This document shows, one piece after another, positions 54,463 to 63,303 of a stretch of DNA of 64,000 bases (position 1 is the stretch's first letter; each line of letters begins with the position of its first letter). A model generated the notes under the pieces. The model saw only the letters and a list, made by a program, of their open reading frames with translations, was not told where the DNA came from and did no database searches. The stretch lies in contig NZ_FMXA01000003.1 in assembly GCF_900103425.1 (NCBI RefSeq), positions 186,001 to 250,000 of the forward strand, in the 5' to 3' direction. A program made the translations under genes and the position numbers. The DNA is from Dialister histaminiformans. GTDB taxonomy: Bacteria; Bacillota; Negativicutes; Veillonellales; Dialisteraceae.

Positions 54463-54972
54463 CTATATCTTATATTTAATGGCCTGATGGATAGCTTCCA
54501 GCATCTGTCCAAGGACCTCTTCCGGCGTTCCCCGGTTATCAATGATAATATCCGCTGAGTCCCGGTAAGCCTTCCGGCGTTCCCGGTACAGGTCAAACAC
54601 TTTCTGCGGCCCGTCCTTAAGGAGCGGCCGACTCTCCACTTCCACATCGTTAACGATGTCATCCACCGGCCGGTCAATAAGAAGTATCAGCCCGTTCCGA
54701 CGAAGATTCTCTACGTTCGCGGTCCGTTTCACCACGCCGCCTCCGGTGGAAATTACGATGCCCTGTCTGTCTGCCAGTTCCCGGATAGTCCGTTCTTCCG
54801 CATCCCGGAATGCCTTCTCGCTTTCTGCGAAGAAGCTGGAAATTGTCCGTCCTTCCCGCTCTTCCAGATAATCATCCGCATCCACAAAGGGACGGTTCAG
54901 TTCTCTGGACAGCGCACGGCCAAACGTGGTTTTCCCGCTTCCCGGCATGCCGATAAGTACTATATTTTTCAT
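54463..54972 (-). CDS. aroK: Shikimate kinase
   Basis: The 169-residue P-loop kinase phosphorylates shikimate at O3. Walker A GMPGSGKTTFG, DADDYLEER, the conserved GGGVV and RPLL are clear. The open frame extends about 88 codons upstream, but that part lies in aroE and is not kinase-like. The ATG chosen overlaps the aroE stop by 4 bases. Last gene of the operon. Confidence 0.93.
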   Translation of the reverse strand: MKNIVLIGMPGSGKTTFGRALSRELNRPFVDADDYLEEREGRTISSFFAESEKAFRDAEERTIRELADRQGIVISTGGGVVKRTANVENLRRNGLILLIDRPVDDIVNDVEVESRPLLKDGPQKVFDLYRERRKAYRDSADIIIDNRGTPEEVLGQMLEAIHQAIKYKI

Positions 54973-55775
54973 GACATCATTTCCTTTACTATGGCCTGCA
55001 CGGTGTCCTCGGAAATATCTCTGTCCATCCATATTTCCTCCGCTGCCACCGCCTGCATGACCAGCATATACATACCGTTTATTCTGTCGCCCCGGGCATC
55101 CTTCAGAAGCTGTGTTTCCGCCGGATTGTAGATAATATCCACCACCTTGGGGAATCTGGCAGTTATCTCTGCCGGTACCGGGGATACGCCCATATGAGGA
55201 TACATGCCCACCGGGGTCGCGTTCACCAGAAGCCACGGATTGGGTGCAGAAGGAACCCAGTCGTATCCGCGGATGACCGCGTGCCGCGCTCTGGCAAATG
55301 CCTCAAATTCGCTGTCTATATGGTCCGGATGCCGGCTGATAACGGCGATATCCTGCGCCCCTTCATCGGCAAGACACTGAATAATGGCCCGGGAAGCTCC
55401 GCCATGCCCCAGTACAACGGCTGAACGCCCTTTCATGTCGCAGTGAATGCGTGCCAGTGTCCGTTTAAACCCAGTGTAATCCGTATTATATCCGATGAGA
55501 CATCCATTTTTTCTGGCAATGGTATTTACTGCCCCGATAGTCTTTGCTTCCGGGGACAGTTCATCCAGAAAGGGAATGACCGCCACCTTATAGGGGATGG
55601 TTACGTTAAGTCCATCATAGTCGGCCAGCATACGGGGAAGCTGTTCTTCCAGCTCTGCCTCCGGCACTTCCAGGAGTTCATACGTGGACTGGCACCCTTC
55701 CTGCCGAAACAGCGACTCATGTATTTTCGGTGACATACTATGCCCCAGCACTTTGCCAAGCAATCCCAGTTTCAT
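54969..55775 (-). CDS. aroE: Shikimate 5-dehydrogenase
   Basis: The 268-residue enzyme reduces 3-dehydroshikimate. GKVLGHSMSPKIHESLF, GLNVTIPYK, GAVNTI and YNTDYTGF are family marks, and the nucleotide loop reads GHGGASRA, a variant of GAGGAA. AAGGAGG is 4 bases before the ATG. It overlaps pheA by 4 bases. Confidence 0.93.
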   Translation of the reverse strand: MKLGLLGKVLGHSMSPKIHESLFRQEGCQSTYELLEVPEAELEEQLPRMLADYDGLNVTIPYKVAVIPFLDELSPEAKTIGAVNTIARKNGCLIGYNTDYTGFKRTLARIHCDMKGRSAVVLGHGGASRAIIQCLADEGAQDIAVISRHPDHIDSEFEAFARARHAVIRGYDWVPSAPNPWLLVNATPVGMYPHMGVSPVPAEITARFPKVVDIIYNPAETQLLKDARGDRINGMYMLVMQAVAAEEIWMDRDISEDTVQAIVKEMMS

Positions 55776-56620
55776 GACTCCTCCTTATGTGTATATGACG
55801 GATAATTACCAAGAATTTTAAAATATGTGCTCATAGATTCAATCCCCCGCAGTGTCTGCGCATTAGCCGGATTTCTGAGTTTTCCCATAACATCGATATG
55901 AAAAAAATATTCGAATGGCTTGCCTTTAATGGGACGTGACTCCAGGTGCGTCATATTCATACCGCCGTAGAAAAAATATCCCAGTACATGATAGAGTGCC
56001 CCCGATTCGTGGCGTACAGATAATACCAGAGTAATCTTATCCGCATCATCAGCAATTTCCATAGCCGGTCCAATGATAAAAAACCGGGTATAGTTGCTGC
56101 TGTTGAACGCAATCGCATCCTTCAATACCTGAAGCCCATAAAGACGACCTGCCGTCCGGCTGGCCACAGCGGCCTGGTTCTTCTTTCCTTCTCTGGCCAC
56201 CTTTTCCGCGCTCTGCGCTGTGGAAAAATAAGGCTGCTGCTTCCAATTTCTCTTCTCCATAAAGAATTCCCTGCACTGGGCAAACCCCTGCGGATGAGAA
56301 TACACCGTATCGATATCATCCAGTGTGGCCCCCGGGACACCGAGCAGCACATGCTCAATCTTCACCATCTGCTCTCCCACAATGGCGCAGTCGTAATGCT
56401 GGATCAGATCATATACTTCCGTAATGCCGCCGGTGGATGAATTTTCCATGGGCACTACCCCATAATCCGCCTGACCTTCCCGTACTGCTTTCACCACATC
56501 TTCAAACAGAGGACAGAAAATGACTTCCTTTTCCCTGTTTCCAAACTGTTTTTCCATGGCTTCATAGGTGTAGGCACCTCTGGCGCCATAGCAGGCTACG
56601 CGCAGTTTTTTATTTCCCAT
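55772..56620 (-). CDS. pheA: Prephenate dehydratase
   Basis: The 282-residue monofunctional enzyme converts prephenate to phenylpyruvate. It has YGARGAYTYEAMEK at the N-terminus, VPMENSSTGGITEVYDLI, and the catalytic SSNYTRFFIIG. A C-terminal ACT domain (TLVLSVRHESGALYHVLGYF ... NMTHLESRPIKGKPFEYFFHID) binds Phe for feedback. No chorismate mutase domain is fused. Start at the ATG with GGAGG 7 bases upstream, overlapping aroC by 11 bases. Confidence 0.93.
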   Translation of the reverse strand: MGNKKLRVACYGARGAYTYEAMEKQFGNREKEVIFCPLFEDVVKAVREGQADYGVVPMENSSTGGITEVYDLIQHYDCAIVGEQMVKIEHVLLGVPGATLDDIDTVYSHPQGFAQCREFFMEKRNWKQQPYFSTAQSAEKVAREGKKNQAAVASRTAGRLYGLQVLKDAIAFNSSNYTRFFIIGPAMEIADDADKITLVLSVRHESGALYHVLGYFFYGGMNMTHLESRPIKGKPFEYFFHIDVMGKLRNPANAQTLRGIESMSTYFKILGNYPSYTHKEES

Positions 56621-57710
56621 AGGACAGCCTCCTGTCGGTAAGGAGACGGTCCAGTACCACCAGAGCGGCTGCATTTTCAATCACCGGGATGGCCCGTGGC
56701 ACAATGCACGGGTCATGGCGCCCGCCCACAGAAAGCAGGGTATCTTCCTTTTTCTCAATATCCACCGTATGCTGCCGTTTACCGATAGAGGCAGTAGGCT
56801 TCACTACTGTCCGGAACAATACCGGGGCTCCGCTGGTGATCCCACCCAGGAGCCCACCATTGTGGTTAGACAAACTTTCCACCCGGCCGTCATGATAATG
56901 CATGGCATCGTTGGCCTGTGATCCATATAAACGGCTGAACCTGAATCCATCACCGAACTCCAGCCCCTTTACCGCCGGGATAGAGAACATCATATGGGCC
57001 ATGCAGCTTTCCAGGGAATCAAAGAACGGGTCTCCAAGTCCTGCAGGAAGTCCGCAGAGGATGCATTCCACAATGCCACCGGTAGAATCTCCTGCTTTCT
57101 GCGCCGTCAGTATCTGTGCTTCCATCGCCTGTCCGGCTTCTCTGTCCAGCACAGGAAGTCTCATGGAATCCAGAGATTCCAGTACCTGACGGTCTTCCCC
57201 CATGGGATTAAACGACCGATCAGGAATCCCATGAACTTCCAATGCATGAGCTCCCACATACACTCCTTCCTTCTCAAGGACCTGCCGGGCAATGGCTCCA
57301 GCGAAGGTAAGAGGCGCCGTGATACGGCCAGAGAAATGACCGCCGCCTCGATAATCATTATATCCATGATATTTTACATATCCGGTATAATCCGCATGTC
57401 CCGGGCGCATCTTGCTCTTCAGTTCTCCATAATCCCTGGAATGCTGGTTTTCATTCCGAATTTCCATGGCTAGCGGTGTACCTGTGGTATACCCATTAAA
57501 GTATCCGGACAGTACAGTAAAACTGTCCTTTTCCCTTCTCGGTGTCGCCAGCGGGGAACTTCCCGGGGCGCGGCGTGCCATTTCCTTCTTTACCCGCTCC
57601 CAGTCAATCGCGATTCCAGGAGGCAGTCCATCGATAACCGCACCGATGCCCGTGCCATGAGACTCCCCAAACAGAGTCACCCGTATGGTTTCTCCCCAGG
57701 TATTACTCAT
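56610..57710 (-). CDS. aroC: Chorismate synthase
   Basis: The 366-residue flavin-dependent enzyme makes chorismate from EPSP. FGESHGTGIGAVIDGLPPG, RRAPGSSPLATPRREKD, MRPGHADYTGYVKY, GGGHFSGRITAP and GRHDPCIVPRA are characteristic. AGGAGGG lies 10 bases before the ATG. It overlaps aroA by 8 bases. Confidence 0.95.
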   Translation of the reverse strand: MSNTWGETIRVTLFGESHGTGIGAVIDGLPPGIAIDWERVKKEMARRAPGSSPLATPRREKDSFTVLSGYFNGYTTGTPLAMEIRNENQHSRDYGELKSKMRPGHADYTGYVKYHGYNDYRGGGHFSGRITAPLTFAGAIARQVLEKEGVYVGAHALEVHGIPDRSFNPMGEDRQVLESLDSMRLPVLDREAGQAMEAQILTAQKAGDSTGGIVECILCGLPAGLGDPFFDSLESCMAHMMFSIPAVKGLEFGDGFRFSRLYGSQANDAMHYHDGRVESLSNHNGGLLGGITSGAPVLFRTVVKPTASIGKRQHTVDIEKKEDTLLSVGGRHDPCIVPRAIPVIENAAALVVLDRLLTDRRLSYGK

Positions 57711-58977
57711 AATTGCATTGCCCTCCTGTCTTTACAAAATCATCCCAGAAACGTGGATAGGATTTTCTCACACTGTCAGCTCCGTCGATAGTAAGCCGCC
57801 CATTAATAGCGGGAGATATGGAAGCCAGGGCCATGGCTATCCGGTGATCGTTCCAAGAAGAAACAGCACCGCCATGAAGCGGCGCCCCTCCATGAATTAT
57901 CAGTCCGTCGTCCTTTTCTTCCACTCTGGCTCCCAGGCGGGAAAGTTCCACCGCCATAGCATGCAGCCGGTCGCATTCCTTGAGGCGTACCCTTTCTGCA
58001 TGAACGATTTCCGTGGTTCCTTCACTGACTGCTGCCAGCGCCGCCATAACCGGCACCAGATCCGGTACATTTTCCGCATCCATGACAATGCCGTGAAGCC
58101 GGCTCTTTCCGGCGCACAGACCTTCTCCGGTTTCCTCAATGCATCCGCCCATACGGCGAAGCAGGGAAACGATGGCCTTATCCCCCTGGAGGGAATCCAC
58201 GGACAGGCCTTTAAGTGTGATTGGCCCGCCCAGAAGCCCGGATGCCAGCCAGAAGGCTGCCTGCGAAAAATCCCCTTCCACAGCAAAGTTTCCGGCCTTA
58301 TAAGTCTGATTACCCGAAATCTCATACTGTCCTCTTCCGGTTTCATTCACCGTAATGCCATGTCGGGCCAGAGTATCCAGCGTCATCTTTACATAACTTT
58401 CTGACTCCAGCGGCGTGGTGCTGACCAGGCGGGAATTCCCTTCAAGCAGCGGCAAGGCAAACAGCAGCCCGGTGAAAAACTGGGAGCTTACATTTCCTGA
58501 CAGGGCATACGTCCCCGGCAGCAGCCGCCCTTTTACATACAGCGGCAGTCCGTTCTTCCCCTTCCAGGTAATCCCTTTTTCATCAAATATCTGATAGTAC
58601 GGCGAAAGAGGACGTTCAGCCAGTCGCCCTTCGCCGGTATATGTCACTTTATTGCCTGATACGAGCCCCAGCGGGATAAGGAAACGGAGCGTAGAACCGG
58701 ATTCTCCCGCGTGAGCCGTCACCGGTTTCTCCTGCGCCTTCAAGCCTCCCTTTATCAGGAGTGTCGTCCCTTCTGTCCCTTCCTGCCTCTGGATACTGGC
58801 TCCCAGGAGGGAAAGTATGCGCACGGTAGCCTCAATATCCTGAGACCAGCTTACTCCGGTAAGCCGGCTCTCCCCATGAGCCAGTGCCGATGCGATGATT
58901 TCCCGATGGGTCATACTTTTAGAGGAAGGAATCCGGATCTGCCCTTCCAGGCGTGTTGGCGTAATGGTCACCTTCAT
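57703..58977 (-). CDS. aroA: EPSP synthase
   Basis: The 424-residue enzyme joins shikimate-3-phosphate and PEP. The N-terminal PSSKSMTHREIIASAL, GESGSTLRFLIPLG and the later SWNDHRIAMALA are the substrate loops. The early motif reads AGESGS, where many enzymes have NAG(T/N)A. That change resembles class II enzymes, which often tolerate glyphosate, but sensitivity cannot be judged here. It overlaps both neighbours by a few bases. Confidence 0.94.
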   Translation of the reverse strand: MKVTITPTRLEGQIRIPSSKSMTHREIIASALAHGESRLTGVSWSQDIEATVRILSLLGASIQRQEGTEGTTLLIKGGLKAQEKPVTAHAGESGSTLRFLIPLGLVSGNKVTYTGEGRLAERPLSPYYQIFDEKGITWKGKNGLPLYVKGRLLPGTYALSGNVSSQFFTGLLFALPLLEGNSRLVSTTPLESESYVKMTLDTLARHGITVNETGRGQYEISGNQTYKAGNFAVEGDFSQAAFWLASGLLGGPITLKGLSVDSLQGDKAIVSLLRRMGGCIEETGEGLCAGKSRLHGIVMDAENVPDLVPVMAALAAVSEGTTEIVHAERVRLKECDRLHAMAVELSRLGARVEEKDDGLIIHGGAPLHGGAVSSWNDHRIAMALASISPAINGRLTIDGADSVRKSYPRFWDDFVKTGGQCNYE

Positions 58978-60053
58978 AAGGCATCCTCTCCTGTCACAAT
59001 ATAGCGGGAAAGCTCTTCTGTATCTACCGGAAGAAGTTCCGCTTCTCCAATACGGGGAATGGTTACCAGGGTAATCCGGTTCCCCCTTCTCTTTTTGTCA
59101 TGCATAATTTCGGGAATCAGTCTGGCGGCCTCCACCGGTACCGTTACAGGAAGAGACAGCTTTTCCAGTACCTTCTTCATCCGCGCTGCCGTCCCTTTTT
59201 CTGTAAGCCCCATCCGTTCTGTCTGCTCGGTAAGAAGAGCCATACCAATAGCCACCCCTTCCCCATGCGTATAGGTCTCATAGTGGAAATACCGTTCCAC
59301 CGCATGGCCTATGGTATGCCCGAAATTAAGAATCTGACGGAGATTCTGTTCTTTTGCATCCGCTTCTACCACCCGGGCCTTCTGCTGCACACTGGCACAG
59401 ATAATGTCTTCCATATGGGCTTCCAGGTCCGCTTCGTTTTCCATAGACTCAAACAGAGAAAACAAACGGCTGTCCCCAATGCATCCATACTTTACCGCTT
59501 CGGCCAGTCCATCATGAATAAACCGGGCCGGCAGCGTGCTGAGTAAATCCGGATCAATGAAGACTCCTCTGGGCTGATAGAAAGCTCCGGCCAAATTTTT
59601 ACCTGCCGGCAGATCCACAGCCACCTTCCCTCCTACCGAGCTGTCAATCTGTGCCAGTATAGTGGTAGGAACCTGAAAGAACGGAATACCCCGCATATAG
59701 GATGCTGCTGCATAACCGCCCAAATCACCAGGCACACCGCCGGAGAGGGTCACCAGCGCATCTTTACGTGTCATTTCAAAATCGGCCATGGCATTGAGCA
59801 CATCTCCAAATACAGAAAGATTCTTGCTCGTTTCTCCTGCCGGTATGGTGATAATCCGAACGGTAAATCCGGCGTCTTCCAGAATCCGGCGGAACCGTTC
59901 TCCGTAAAGGGGCCCTACATGGTCATCAGTGACCACGGCGATTTTCTCCGCATCAGTAAGACGGCGTATCTTTCTTCCCGTATCTTCCAGAAGTCCCCTC
60001 CGGATTTCCACGGTATATGAATCTTTCCCAAGATGTATATCAACGGCTGCCAT
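58974..60053 (-). CDS. aroB: 3-dehydroquinate synthase
   Basis: The 359-residue NAD-dependent enzyme cyclises DAHP. VTLSGGVPGDLGGYAAASYMRGI, QVPTTILAQIDSSVGGKVAVDLPAGKNLAGAF, LAEAVKYG and the zinc ligands in NFGHTIGHAVE and THGEGVAIGM are present. It overlaps tyrA by 14 bases and aroA by 4. Confidence 0.95.
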   Translation of the reverse strand: MAAVDIHLGKDSYTVEIRRGLLEDTGRKIRRLTDAEKIAVVTDDHVGPLYGERFRRILEDAGFTVRIITIPAGETSKNLSVFGDVLNAMADFEMTRKDALVTLSGGVPGDLGGYAAASYMRGIPFFQVPTTILAQIDSSVGGKVAVDLPAGKNLAGAFYQPRGVFIDPDLLSTLPARFIHDGLAEAVKYGCIGDSRLFSLFESMENEADLEAHMEDIICASVQQKARVVEADAKEQNLRQILNFGHTIGHAVERYFHYETYTHGEGVAIGMALLTEQTERMGLTEKGTAARMKKVLEKLSLPVTVPVEAARLIPEIMHDKKRRGNRITLVTIPRIGEAELLPVDTEELSRYIVTGEDAL

Positions 60054-60900
60054 GATGTATCATTTCCCTTCTTCTTCTCCGGGCCTCTGTGAAAAACTCA
60101 CAAAGCGCTTCCGCATCCTCTGTCTCCAGCGCTTTCCTGAGCTTGCAAAGAGACTCCTGAAAAGAGTCCATTTCTGCTAAAATCTTATCCCGGTTTGACA
60201 GGAACAGGCTTGTCCAGAGCCGGCCATTTATATCTGCCACCCGTGTGGCATCCGTAAAGGAACCTCCGATAAACATTCCGGTATCCTTCTCATAAGATTC
60301 ACTGTTCATCAGAGAAGCCGCCACTGCATGTGGGAGACCGCTGGTGTAAGCGATGAACCGGTCGTGCTCCTCCGCCGTAACCCGGGGAATATGTTTTGCC
60401 CCCAGGGCTCTGGCGAGCCGGGCAATGAGTTCCAGGTGTTCCGGCTCATTTTCCTTTTCCGGGATGAGTACATAATTGCAATTATTAAAAATCGTCCCAT
60501 CCGCCTGCGCCAGTCCGGCTCCTTCCCGGCCACACATAGGATGTGCGGATATAAAGTCCATTCCTGGCGGGAGCAGCTCCCGTATACGGGGCCAGTTGTG
60601 ATCTTTCACTCCGGCAATATCCGTGAGTACGGCTCCTTCTTTCAGCCAGTCCCCATGTTCCTTAAGGAAGGCCAGTGTTCCCTTCACTGGTGTACAGAAA
60701 ATCACAATATCCGCTTTCTTCAGATCCTGTGGATTAACAGACTGTACCAAGCCCATTCTCAGCGCCTGTTCTGCGGTTTCCTCTGTTCGGTTAAATCCGA
60801 TGACAAAACACCCCAGCTCAGTGAGCCGTTCTGCAAAAGAGCCTCCCATCAGCCCCAGTCCGATAACGGCAACCGGCCTGTTTTTAAAGTCACTGTTCAT
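60040..60900 (-). CDS. tyrA: Prephenate dehydrogenase
   Basis: The 286-residue NAD-dependent enzyme makes 4-hydroxyphenylpyruvate for tyrosine. The N-terminal VAVIGLGLMGGSFAERL binds NAD; DISAHPMCG-like FISAHPMCGREGAG and YTSGLPHAVAASL are family motifs. It has no ACT or mutase domain. AGGTGG lies 6 bases before the ATG chosen; the open frame begins 19 codons earlier. First gene after aroF and a hairpin. Confidence 0.9.
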   Translation of the reverse strand: MNSDFKNRPVAVIGLGLMGGSFAERLTELGCFVIGFNRTEETAEQALRMGLVQSVNPQDLKKADIVIFCTPVKGTLAFLKEHGDWLKEGAVLTDIAGVKDHNWPRIRELLPPGMDFISAHPMCGREGAGLAQADGTIFNNCNYVLIPEKENEPEHLELIARLARALGAKHIPRVTAEEHDRFIAYTSGLPHAVAASLMNSESYEKDTGMFIGGSFTDATRVADINGRLWTSLFLSNRDKILAEMDSFQESLCKLRKALETEDAEALCEFFTEARRRRREMIHHGSR

Positions 60901-60960
60901 AATCATCCACCTGTTGTAATGATAGCACGGGTCATACGACACCGTATATCTCTCCATTTA

Positions 60961-61006: not shown

Positions 61007-62023
61007 TTATAATTCTCTGCCCACAATAGGAGCCAGCTGTCTTAACCGGCCCATAAGGTGGTCAAAGGTTTCCGGAGTAATGGATTCTGCCCCATCACAC
61101 CATGCGTGTTCCGGATCATTATGAACTTCACACATAATACCATCTGCACCAGCAGCAATGGCTGCCATGGCCATGTCTTCTACCATCCAGCGATGGCCGG
61201 TAGCATGGCTTGGATCTACAATAACCGGCAGGTGGCTTCTGCGCTTAACTACCGTAACGGCGGACAAATCCAGAGTATTTCTTGTCGCCTTTTCAAAGGT
61301 GCGGATACCGCGTTCGCAGAGAATGACATTCTGGTTGCCTTCTGACATGATATATTCTGCACTCATGAGCCATTCATCAATCGTAGCGGAGAGGCCGCGC
61401 TTTAACAGTACCGGCACATTGAGACGACCTACAGCACGAAGCAAATCGAAATTCTGCATATTTCTTGCCCCAATCTGAATCAGATCCACCTTCTTTTCCA
61501 GGAAGGTCCCAATCTTATCTGCACTCATCAACTCAGTAACTACTGGCAGCTGTACATCCTTCGCCGCTTCAATGAGCATATCCAGTCCCTTTTCCCGGAG
61601 TCCCTGGAAAGAGTATGGAGATGTTCTGGGCTTGAATGCGCCACCACGCAGAAGAGATGCGCCGGAATTCTTAACTGCCTGTGCCACGGTATGAATCTGT
61701 TCCGGAGTTTCAATGGAACATGGTCCGGCCATAACCACCAGCTTCTTTCCACCTACTTTGACCCCGCTTACATCAATAATGGAATTCTGCGGATGGAAAG
61801 AACGGCTGGCACGCTTGTATGGTTCCTGTACTCTCATTACTTTTTCTACCCATTCATTACCAAGGAAATCGCGTTCATCCAGCTTGAATGTATCTCCAAT
61901 AAGCCCGAGTACCACCTTACTTTCCCCCTGGCTGCGAGACACTTTGAATCCTCTGTTGTTCAACTCAGTTTCCAGGTTTTCCACTGCTGTGAGCGGTGCA
62001 TTCTGCTTCATAACGATAATCAT
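61007..62023 (-). CDS. aroF: DAHP synthase, type I beta
   Basis: The 338-residue enzyme catalyses the first step of the shikimate pathway from PEP and erythrose-4-phosphate. The barrel motifs VVMAGPCSIET, LLRGGAFKPRTSPYSFQGL, IGARNMQNFDLL, LLKRGLS, LCERGIRTFE and DPSHATGHR are clear. Residues 1-70 form the ferredoxin-like regulatory domain (MIIVMKQNAP ... VVLGLIGDT) that in Thermotoga-type enzymes mediates Tyr/Phe inhibition. AGAGGAGG lies 5 bases before the ATG. Transcription is probably controlled by the attenuator described at 62117-62347. Confidence 0.94.
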   Translation of the reverse strand: MIIVMKQNAPLTAVENLETELNNRGFKVSRSQGESKVVLGLIGDTFKLDERDFLGNEWVEKVMRVQEPYKRASRSFHPQNSIIDVSGVKVGGKKLVVMAGPCSIETPEQIHTVAQAVKNSGASLLRGGAFKPRTSPYSFQGLREKGLDMLIEAAKDVQLPVVTELMSADKIGTFLEKKVDLIQIGARNMQNFDLLRAVGRLNVPVLLKRGLSATIDEWLMSAEYIMSEGNQNVILCERGIRTFEKATRNTLDLSAVTVVKRRSHLPVIVDPSHATGHRWMVEDMAMAAIAAGADGIMCEVHNDPEHAWCDGAESITPETFDHLMGRLRQLAPIVGREL

Positions 62024-62116: not shown

Positions 62117-62149
62117 AAAAAAAAGCAGGCTCGCCTGAGCCTGCTTTTC
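62117..62149 (-). terminator. Attenuator terminator in the aroF leader
   Basis: On the minus strand GCAGGCTC (62144-62137) pairs with GAGCCTGC (62132-62125) around a 4-base loop, followed by eight T. It starts 22 bases after the leader-peptide stop and about 95 bases before aroF, with no other gene to terminate. An upstream strand, CTGAGTC (62191-62185) plus CTTTTC (62177-62172), can pair with GGCTCAG (62141-62135) and GAAAAG (62149-62144) and so exclude it. Confidence 0.85.
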
Positions 62150-62165
62150 TTAAAACGATACGATT

Positions 62166-62288
62166 CTATCTGAAAAGACCATGTGACTCAGCACGTAACG
62201 GGTATGCAAAAAATCCGAAGCCATAAAAATAGCTCCAGTCATAGTTTACGTATGCAAGTCCCATAGTATTCATTGGCTGTGTCATCAT
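62166..62288 (-). CDS. Aromatic-rich leader peptide of the aro operon
   Basis: A 40-codon gene with AGGAAAGGAG 5 bases before ATG. Codons 13-29 read YVNYDWSYFYGFGFFAY: ten of seventeen are Tyr, Phe or Trp. It stands between a consensus promoter and an intrinsic terminator in front of aroF. Uncharged tRNA-Tyr, -Phe or -Trp would stall the ribosome there. The peptide itself probably has no function. GCATACGTAAAC (62255-62244) can pair with GTTACGTGC (62199-62191), forming a pause hairpin that spans the aromatic codons. A longer open frame begins upstream but lacks a start site. Confidence 0.82.
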   Translation of the reverse strand: MMTQPMNTMGLAYVNYDWSYFYGFGFFAYPLRAESHGLFR

Positions 62289-62318
62289 AATCTCTCCTTT
62301 CCTGTTAGAGTTAAAGTA

Positions 62319-62347
62319 AGTATAGACACTTTTAAATTTGTTGTCAA
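62319..62347 (-). promoter_or_regulatory. Consensus promoter of the aroF leader
   Basis: On the minus strand TTGACA (62347-62342) and TATACT (62324-62319) are separated by exactly 17 bases. Transcription should start near 62312, leaving a leader of about 290 bases before aroF. Confidence 0.85.
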
Positions 62348-62727: not shown

Positions 62728-63303
62728 TCAGTATCCCAGCTTTTCCAGCCACTGATTCAGGTCTTCCGCCTTCTTGGGCGTGTTTATAAAATAATGATCC
62801 TTAATCTGTGCCCCCGGAGCATGTATTTCCAGATCGGTCAGACTTTGTCCCATATCCCCCTTCGGGGATCCTGCCACGGGAATCAGGTTCACACCGGTAA
62901 GATTGGTTTCCTGCAAGAAGGTAAATACCGGCATCGGCATAGTACCCCACCAGAGCGGATAGCACAGGAATACGGTCTTATAGCTGTTGGCATTGGGAAT
63001 CTTTGTGGCAATAGGTGGCAAAGTGTGGTTAACCGCTTCTTCCCTGGCAGCCTGCATGGCCTGTTTAAGATCCACCGGGAACGGAACCTGACGGCGAATT
63101 TCCACTATGCGGCCTCCGGTCTTGCTGGCAATGGCTTCTGCCACATGCCCCATAATATCGGAATCCGAATAATACACGATAAGCACATTCGGATTTTTCG
63201 CTGTTTCTTCACTGGCCGTCTGCGTCTCCGTATTTCCCAGACTGCATGCCGTAAGCACTGCCGATAAACATACCGCTAATATAATGGTTATCCATTTTTT
63301 CAT
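62728..63303 (-). CDS. Flavodoxin-domain lipoprotein
   Basis: The 191-residue protein has a signal sequence with lipobox LTAC (Cys about 20), then a flavodoxin fold: VLIVYYSDSDIMGHVAEAI (the FMN phosphate loop) and VFLCYPLWWGTMPMPVFTFL. Its likely place is anchored outside the cytoplasmic membrane, unlike ordinary flavodoxins. It resembles flavodoxin_4-type proteins; the electron partner is unknown. Single gene followed by a terminator at 62532-62571. Confidence 0.85.
   Translation of the reverse strand: MKKWITIILAVCLSAVLTACSLGNTETQTASEETAKNPNVLIVYYSDSDIMGHVAEAIASKTGGRIVEIRRQVPFPVDLKQAMQAAREEAVNHTLPPIATKIPNANSYKTVFLCYPLWWGTMPMPVFTFLQETNLTGVNLIPVAGSPKGDMGQSLTDLEIHAPGAQIKDHYFINTPKKAEDLNQWLEKLGY

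Follow-up and report, generated by a model that had tools for sequence, protein, structure and literature searches.

A probable leader-peptide attenuator with Phe, Tyr and Trp codons upstream of the shikimate operon of Dialister histaminiformans

In the trp attenuator of E. coli, strand 1 of the leader RNA holds the Trp codons, the ilv and thr leaders read more than one amino acid, and T-boxes read one tRNA each. Leader peptides for His are known in several Firmicutes groups (PMC9413887), and precedents also exist at the gene considered here, aroF. In Corynebacterium glutamicum, the Phe-Tyr-Phe leader aroR lies before aroF, in the DAHP synthase operon, and is reported to mediate ribosome-dependent transcription attenuation that responds to Phe limitation (Neshat et al. 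2014, as related in PMC11802643 and PMC4046766). In Acholeplasma, uORFC-13-1 combines a uORF, a possible promoter, a ribosome-binding site (RBS) and a Phe-coding U run, directly before a terminator and aroF (PMC8632094). Lastly, two Phe/Tyr-coding uORFs before shikimate genes came out of a five-genome screen that included C. novyi, the legend leaving the carrier genome unstated; the same source also places some C. novyi motifs in Negativicutes (PMC6429828).

Here we describe a leader ahead of the shikimate operon of Dialister histaminiformans, within a 64,000-nucleotide stretch of contig NZ_FMXA01000003.1 (the window), which on comparative sequence evidence is very likely a ribosome-mediated transcription attenuator of the shikimate/Phe/Tyr operon that senses Phe and Tyr. 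A first-pass annotation of the window had proposed that such control might be undescribed, a suggestion that the precedents at the same gene in Corynebacterium, Acholeplasma and the five-genome screen set aside: because aroR, uORFC-13-1 and the F/Y shikimate uORFs precede it, this kind of control is already known. The C. glutamicum aroR leader shares with ours the gene and a short aromatic leader, but it is Phe-Tyr-Phe only, belongs to another phylum and shows no Tyr effect, whereas in the window leader the aromatic codons number ten and a conserved helix links the RBS to the antiterminator strand. Compared by description, uORFC-13-1 is reported only from Acholeplasma and environmental sequences, with 24 examples, and is described as coding for at least one Phe (PMC8632094), and the uORFs of PMC6429828 are alike in linking F/Y codons to shikimate genes, the main-text passages of that source giving neither a mechanism nor a coevolution analysis. 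The Clostridium aroF leaders reported below may be the same element as those shikimate uORFs. With the E. coli trp, pheA, pheST, ilv and thr attenuators our leader shares the working principle, while peptides and RNAs differ, and its strand 1 sits at the RBS, not at the sensing codons as in E. coli. What sets it apart from known leaders is its unusual breadth, with the RBS helix as its most distinctive trait. Evaluating the window against Rfam, we found no leader family at gathering score, nor any even at E up to 5, and scans of the window plus 40 related loci gave no known leader family at aroF except T-boxes in leaderless relatives. Our literature search returned no report of an aroF leader peptide in Negativicutes, which is weak evidence, subscription papers lying mostly outside that search.

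The operon (Table 1) holds most of the common pathway together with the Tyr and Phe branches, the Trp branch being absent; its tyrA, aroE and aroK scored under the curated NCBIfam cut-offs, yet were clear by E-value, and its AroF shares 84% identity with the Dialister sp. UBA1703 protein. Upstream, a strong inverted repeat plus T run (AAAAAAACGACTTCC...GGAAGTCGTTTTTTT, window 62572-62532) lies 3' of a flavodoxin-like gene (62728-63303), where it probably terminates that gene's transcript and insulates the aro promoter. Elsewhere in the family, the relatives G001, G003 and G004 (genomes of 1.3-1.6 Mb) possess neither this aroF nor trpA; because 3 of 12 family genomes lack both genes, aromatic synthesis appears to have been lost during the family's history, and their gene content suggests that these three gave up making aromatic amino acids.

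Table 1. Features of the leader region and of the operon that follows it, in window coordinates.
Feature	Position	Strand	Evidence
Sigma-70-type promoter, TTGACA-17-TATACT	62319..62347	-	11/12 consensus matches
Leader ribosome-binding site, AAAGGAG	62294..62300	-	5 nt 5' of ATG
Strand 1: RBS/start region pairing with 62195-62172 (anti-antiterminator)	62271..62297	-	fold, coevolution, alignment folding
Leader peptide ORF, 40 codons, stop TAG	62166..62288	-	homologues in relatives
Sensing stretch: aromatic codons 13-29, ten Phe/Tyr/Trp	62202..62252	-	ORF translation
Hairpin in the aromatic codons, then T run; probable polymerase pause hairpin	62215..62238	-	fold, recoding test, alignments
Strand 2: antiterminator 5' strand	62172..62191	-	duplex, coevolution
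Strand 3: terminator 5' arm, partner of strand 2	62135..62149	-	duplex, coevolution
Intrinsic terminator, eight T	62117..62151	-	sequence, fold; compensatory pairs in alignments
aroF (DAHP synthase), the operon's first gene	61007..62023	-	profile match
tyrA, aroB, aroA, aroC, pheA, aroE, aroK (remaining operon)	54463..60957	-	profile matches
Possible terminator 3' of aroK	near 54455-54415	-	sequence

The first-pass annotation had read, ahead of aroF, a consensus promoter, a 40-codon leader with a good RBS, ten aromatic residues within codons 13-29 and a terminator with eight T, and each of these held up on re-examination (Table 1). The leader peptide is MMTQPMNTMGLAYVNYDWSYFYGFGFFAYPLRAESHGLFR, with its aromatic residues at Y13, Y16, W18, Y20, F21, Y22, F24, F26, F27 and Y29, and the terminator is a 15-pair stem (62151-62137 with 62132-62118) with a 4-nt loop and its T run at 62124-62117; our terminator scan of the window flagged the in-ORF hairpin and missed this real terminator, whose stem consumes part of the T run. 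Folded as RNA, the region reaches -67 kcal/mol versus -43.8 for dinucleotide shuffles (z = -6.0, none of 200 as stable). Promoter sites of the sigma-70 type also arise by chance, at 1.4 per shuffled region, and the order of promoter and leader is visible as well 5' of the leader at locus L007.

Turning to relatives, where the first-pass annotation had proposed aligning aroF upstream regions of Negativicutes and looking for a conserved aromatic-rich short gene with covarying hairpins, we drew aroF upstream regions from 80 named contigs, the window's family and a class-wide Negativicutes sample, calling leader starts, terminators and aromatic clusters by script with thresholds set in this analysis. 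The short gene proved to be conserved: at a threshold of 7 aromatics, 79 of the 91 Negativicutes regions had a leader, in 78 cases together with a terminator. A leader was also present in 31 of 71 non-Negativicutes loci, mostly Clostridium, with others in Treponema/Spirochaetaceae and further Firmicutes. One more Negativicutes locus (L138) carries a clear leader that falls marginally below the threshold, and a terminator lies 3' of 112 of the 115 leaders scanned. Three other Negativicutes aroF upstream regions (L160, L151 and L120) revealed no aromatic leader and no T-box above cut-off. That the arrangement arose by chance, or is an ordinary gene-end terminator beside a spurious ORF, is next to inconceivable: short ORFs and promoter matches are frequent by chance, but in our first set an ORF with at least 8 aromatics in 16 residues lay 5' of aroF in 41 of 86 loci versus 9 of 1720 shuffles, and two competing helices coevolve (see below). 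We rejected the chance ORF as contradicted by these conservation results, and on comparison of sequences we regard the leader and its codon bias as real.

Some genomes carry more than one such gene. Locus L133 (G089:C1:1820491-1823500) holds a tandem aroF pair with a separate aromatic leader and terminator before each member (L133a, L133b); the upstream member has an in-frame TGA and matches residues 1-282 only. Tandem duplicate aroF is common in family f18 (G064, G196, G193, G201, G206, G208), where a gap of about 20 to 50 nt can separate the two genes, too short for the second to have its own leader.

We assessed the leader RNAs for helices that could compete with the terminator. In the window, the antiterminator proposed in the first-pass annotation (62191-62172 with 62149-62135) forms a duplex of -14.3 kcal/mol (shuffle p 0.02). 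Because such single-locus tests against shuffles were mostly weak (p<0.05 in 33 of 112 loci), we used a swapped-partner test instead, in which true pairs of strand 2 and terminator arm beat swapped ones by a mean of 1.95 kcal/mol (-1.95; 0 of 20000 permutations; 92 non-redundant loci), although permutation values overstate independence because the loci are related. Among 43 loci, the pair flanking the [A/G]TGAG/CTC core is A-T 19 times and C-G 12 times, and is paired in 84% versus 50% when permuted. Because the strand-2 core [A/G]TGAG falls in frame 0 at 32 loci and in frame 1 at 23, giving x-Met-Ser-like or Asn-Glu-like residues, it is the RNA pairing that is conserved and not the peptide. 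A further helix, missed in the first-pass annotation, joins the leader's own RBS to strand 2 (62297-62271 with 62195-62172); here own pairing beats swapped by 4.97 kcal/mol (-4.97; 0 of 20000), and alignment folding of a Veillonellaceae-like group found the helix with compensatory pairs (A-U to C-G, C-G to U-A). Covarying positions were recovered in this helix, in the terminator, which shows compensatory changes in three alignments, and in a Megasphaera counterpart of an outer helix discussed below; the window's own family is too divergent 3' of the aromatic cluster, such that its alignment folds only the in-ORF hairpin and the terminator. The competing helices and their coevolution are thus shown by sequence comparison, and the claim that the antiterminator strands pair and compete with the terminator stands, the Veillonellaceae-like group excepted.

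From these parts we infer a switch that would work as follows. The promoter, if active, would yield a leader RNA of about 195 nt, on which the leader would be translated. With charged tRNA ample, the ribosome would pass the aromatic codons, and strand 2 would either lie under the ribosome ending at the stop codon or pair with the RBS of the leader, such that the terminator (62151-62118) would form and transcription would end before aroF. With charged tRNA-Phe or tRNA-Tyr short (and here probably tRNA-Trp too), the ribosome would stall within codons 13-29 and strand 2 would be kept free, most likely by a following ribosome on the RBS, pairing instead with the terminator 5' arm and letting polymerase enter the operon. 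The hairpin within the ORF would probably pause polymerase, allowing the ribosome to keep pace.

To evaluate ribosome occupancy, we used an equilibrium model in which the RNA extends up to the terminator loop, ribosome footprints are blocked and the readout is the number of antiterminator pairs. For the window the model gave 2.75 pairs without a ribosome, and the same number for a mid-cluster stall on its own. With the RBS occupied, a stall at any of codons 13-22 or at codon 29 raised this to about 12. For stalls at codons 23-28 the figure was about 5-8, and a ribosome that had reached the stop left about 4-5. Across 112 loci the median was 4.0 with none, 9.6 with a stall and occupied RBS, and 2.5 at the stop. 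The first-pass annotation had a ribosome stalled up to codon 29 freeing the antiterminator, of which one part survives, that the parts can switch in the model, while in the window the stall by itself proved insufficient and the model also needs an occupied RBS. In this picture strand 2 is contested between the RBS and strand 3, and a second ribosome following the first may have to keep it open. For the Veillonellaceae-like group the model gives no antiterminator on stalling, so that another antiterminator or a different logic may operate there. Where the window's leader has its stop codon is compatible with a ribosome there covering strand 2. In members of the Megasphaera and Pelosinus type the stop is found at least 35 nt past strand 2, leaving that strand out of reach of such a ribosome, and termination could instead follow from the RBS helix re-forming behind the ribosome.

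The first-pass annotation also placed a pause hairpin over the aromatic codons, at 62255-62244 with 62199-62191. A hairpin does lie there, but the best conserved one is 62238-62215 and not this outer helix, of which a covarying counterpart exists in Megasphaera. The in-ORF hairpin is more stable than synonymous recodings at p<0.05 in 57 of 111 loci (median z -2.0), the window's own giving p 0.069 when taken alone, and it probably serves as a polymerase pause.

Stalling could in principle depend on the peptide itself, as in TnaC, with a nascent chain arresting the ribosome on a small molecule and not on hungry codons. Recognisable peptide motifs are indeed kept within lineages, such as W-G/S-Y-F-x-F-S-A-G-Y/F-F in the leaders of Megasphaera, Pelosinus/Sporomusa and Clostridium, but this motif overlaps the hairpin whose stability exceeds that of synonymous recodings, and the RNA can therefore account for some of the conservation seen in the peptide. 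Elsewhere in the class, families have aromatic-rich yet quite different peptides, with QYFYWFFIQxTGKEL in one family of the same order and YGFxFxQSYYFGFGYF in another family of the class, and the reading of the strand-2 core in two frames likewise argues against arrest by the peptide, making this explanation very improbable. Very improbable, too, is that an aromatic metabolite is sensed by a riboswitch or by a protein bound to the leader, the ORF being incidental. The conserved RNA structure is extensive, and another cis-regulatory element has been reported ahead of an Enterococcus aroF operon, its proposed signal being aromatic amino acids or their precursors (PMC4448216), but a ligand-binding RNA would not need the aromatic richness of the ORF that persists across lineages of differing sequence, and no Rfam family matches; on these two grounds we rejected the riboswitch reading. 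Codon-directed stalling accordingly stays our preferred account of the leader.

We next consider T-boxes, which resemble this leader in sensing amino acid supply via tRNA and acting by termination, and which in two related lineages occupy the same site before aroF. The remark in the first-pass annotation that T-boxes are the usual Firmicutes device is sound, and in those lineages one replaces the leader. Six leaderless Negativicutes loci (L152, L154, L156, L157, L158, L159) have a T-box directly 5' of aroF, with specifiers, by position in the model alignment, of UAC (Tyr) in L157 and L154 and UUC (Phe) in L152. The genome of the window has 18 T-box matches, ten of them above the Rfam cut-off, but none 5' of aroF, and no match to RF00230 in the window, for which reason T-box identity was rejected for the window leader. 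One of this genome's T-boxes (L186:224-1990, 92.3 bits against a cut-off of 93) lies directly 5' of its trp operon, whose genes were named from gene order and a trpA match, and has the specifier UGG (Trp).

Which amino acids the leader reads was assessed from 97 non-redundant leaders, revealing F+Y+W in 60, F+Y only in 36 and F+W in one. Given this codon content, Phe and Tyr sensing would be the rule: codons for both occur together in 96 of 97 leaders, while Trp codons fall in the clusters of 61 of 97 and are missing from those of several members of the window's own family. The claim that one leader senses all three therefore holds for Phe and Tyr and only in part for Trp, whose sensing is probable for the window leader and, judged by codon content, not a universal feature. 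Codon content is itself no proof, as in C. glutamicum aroR a Tyr codon is present and Tyr is without effect (PMC11802643). We give a little less than even weight to the possibility that in practice the same attenuator reacts to Phe or Tyr alone, or to just one of the two, with the Trp codon incidental. Consistent with this are the 36 of 97 clusters without Trp, several from the window's family and among them relatives that make Trp (trpA present), an operon holding the Tyr and Phe branches and not the Trp branch, a separate T-box with UGG at the specifier position for the trp operon of the same genome, and the example of aroR, where only Phe acts despite the Tyr codon (PMC11802643). Against it, Trp is still common in the leaders (2.4% of residues; 61 of 97 clusters) and often stands at the same spot in the W-G/S-Y-F motif, a placement that the RNA hairpin may explain.

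Taken more broadly, and tentatively, these leaders could form a widespread family across Negativicutes, Clostridia and some Spirochaetes. Each would combine the signals for Phe and Tyr, and often for Trp as well, use its own RBS as an anti-antiterminator and require both a stalled and a second ribosome for antitermination, with a single-tRNA T-box in its place in some lineages; we consider this fuller picture more apt to fail than to hold. The aromatic aroF leader is a candidate new Rfam family, and it shows clearly how a coding sequence can also encode a hairpin and an antiterminator. A genome with about 18 T-box matches has a peptide leader for an operon feeding several amino acids, where related lineages have a T-box, which makes testable the question of whether control by several inputs favours a peptide leader rather than a T-box, and at what cost the one can replace the other.
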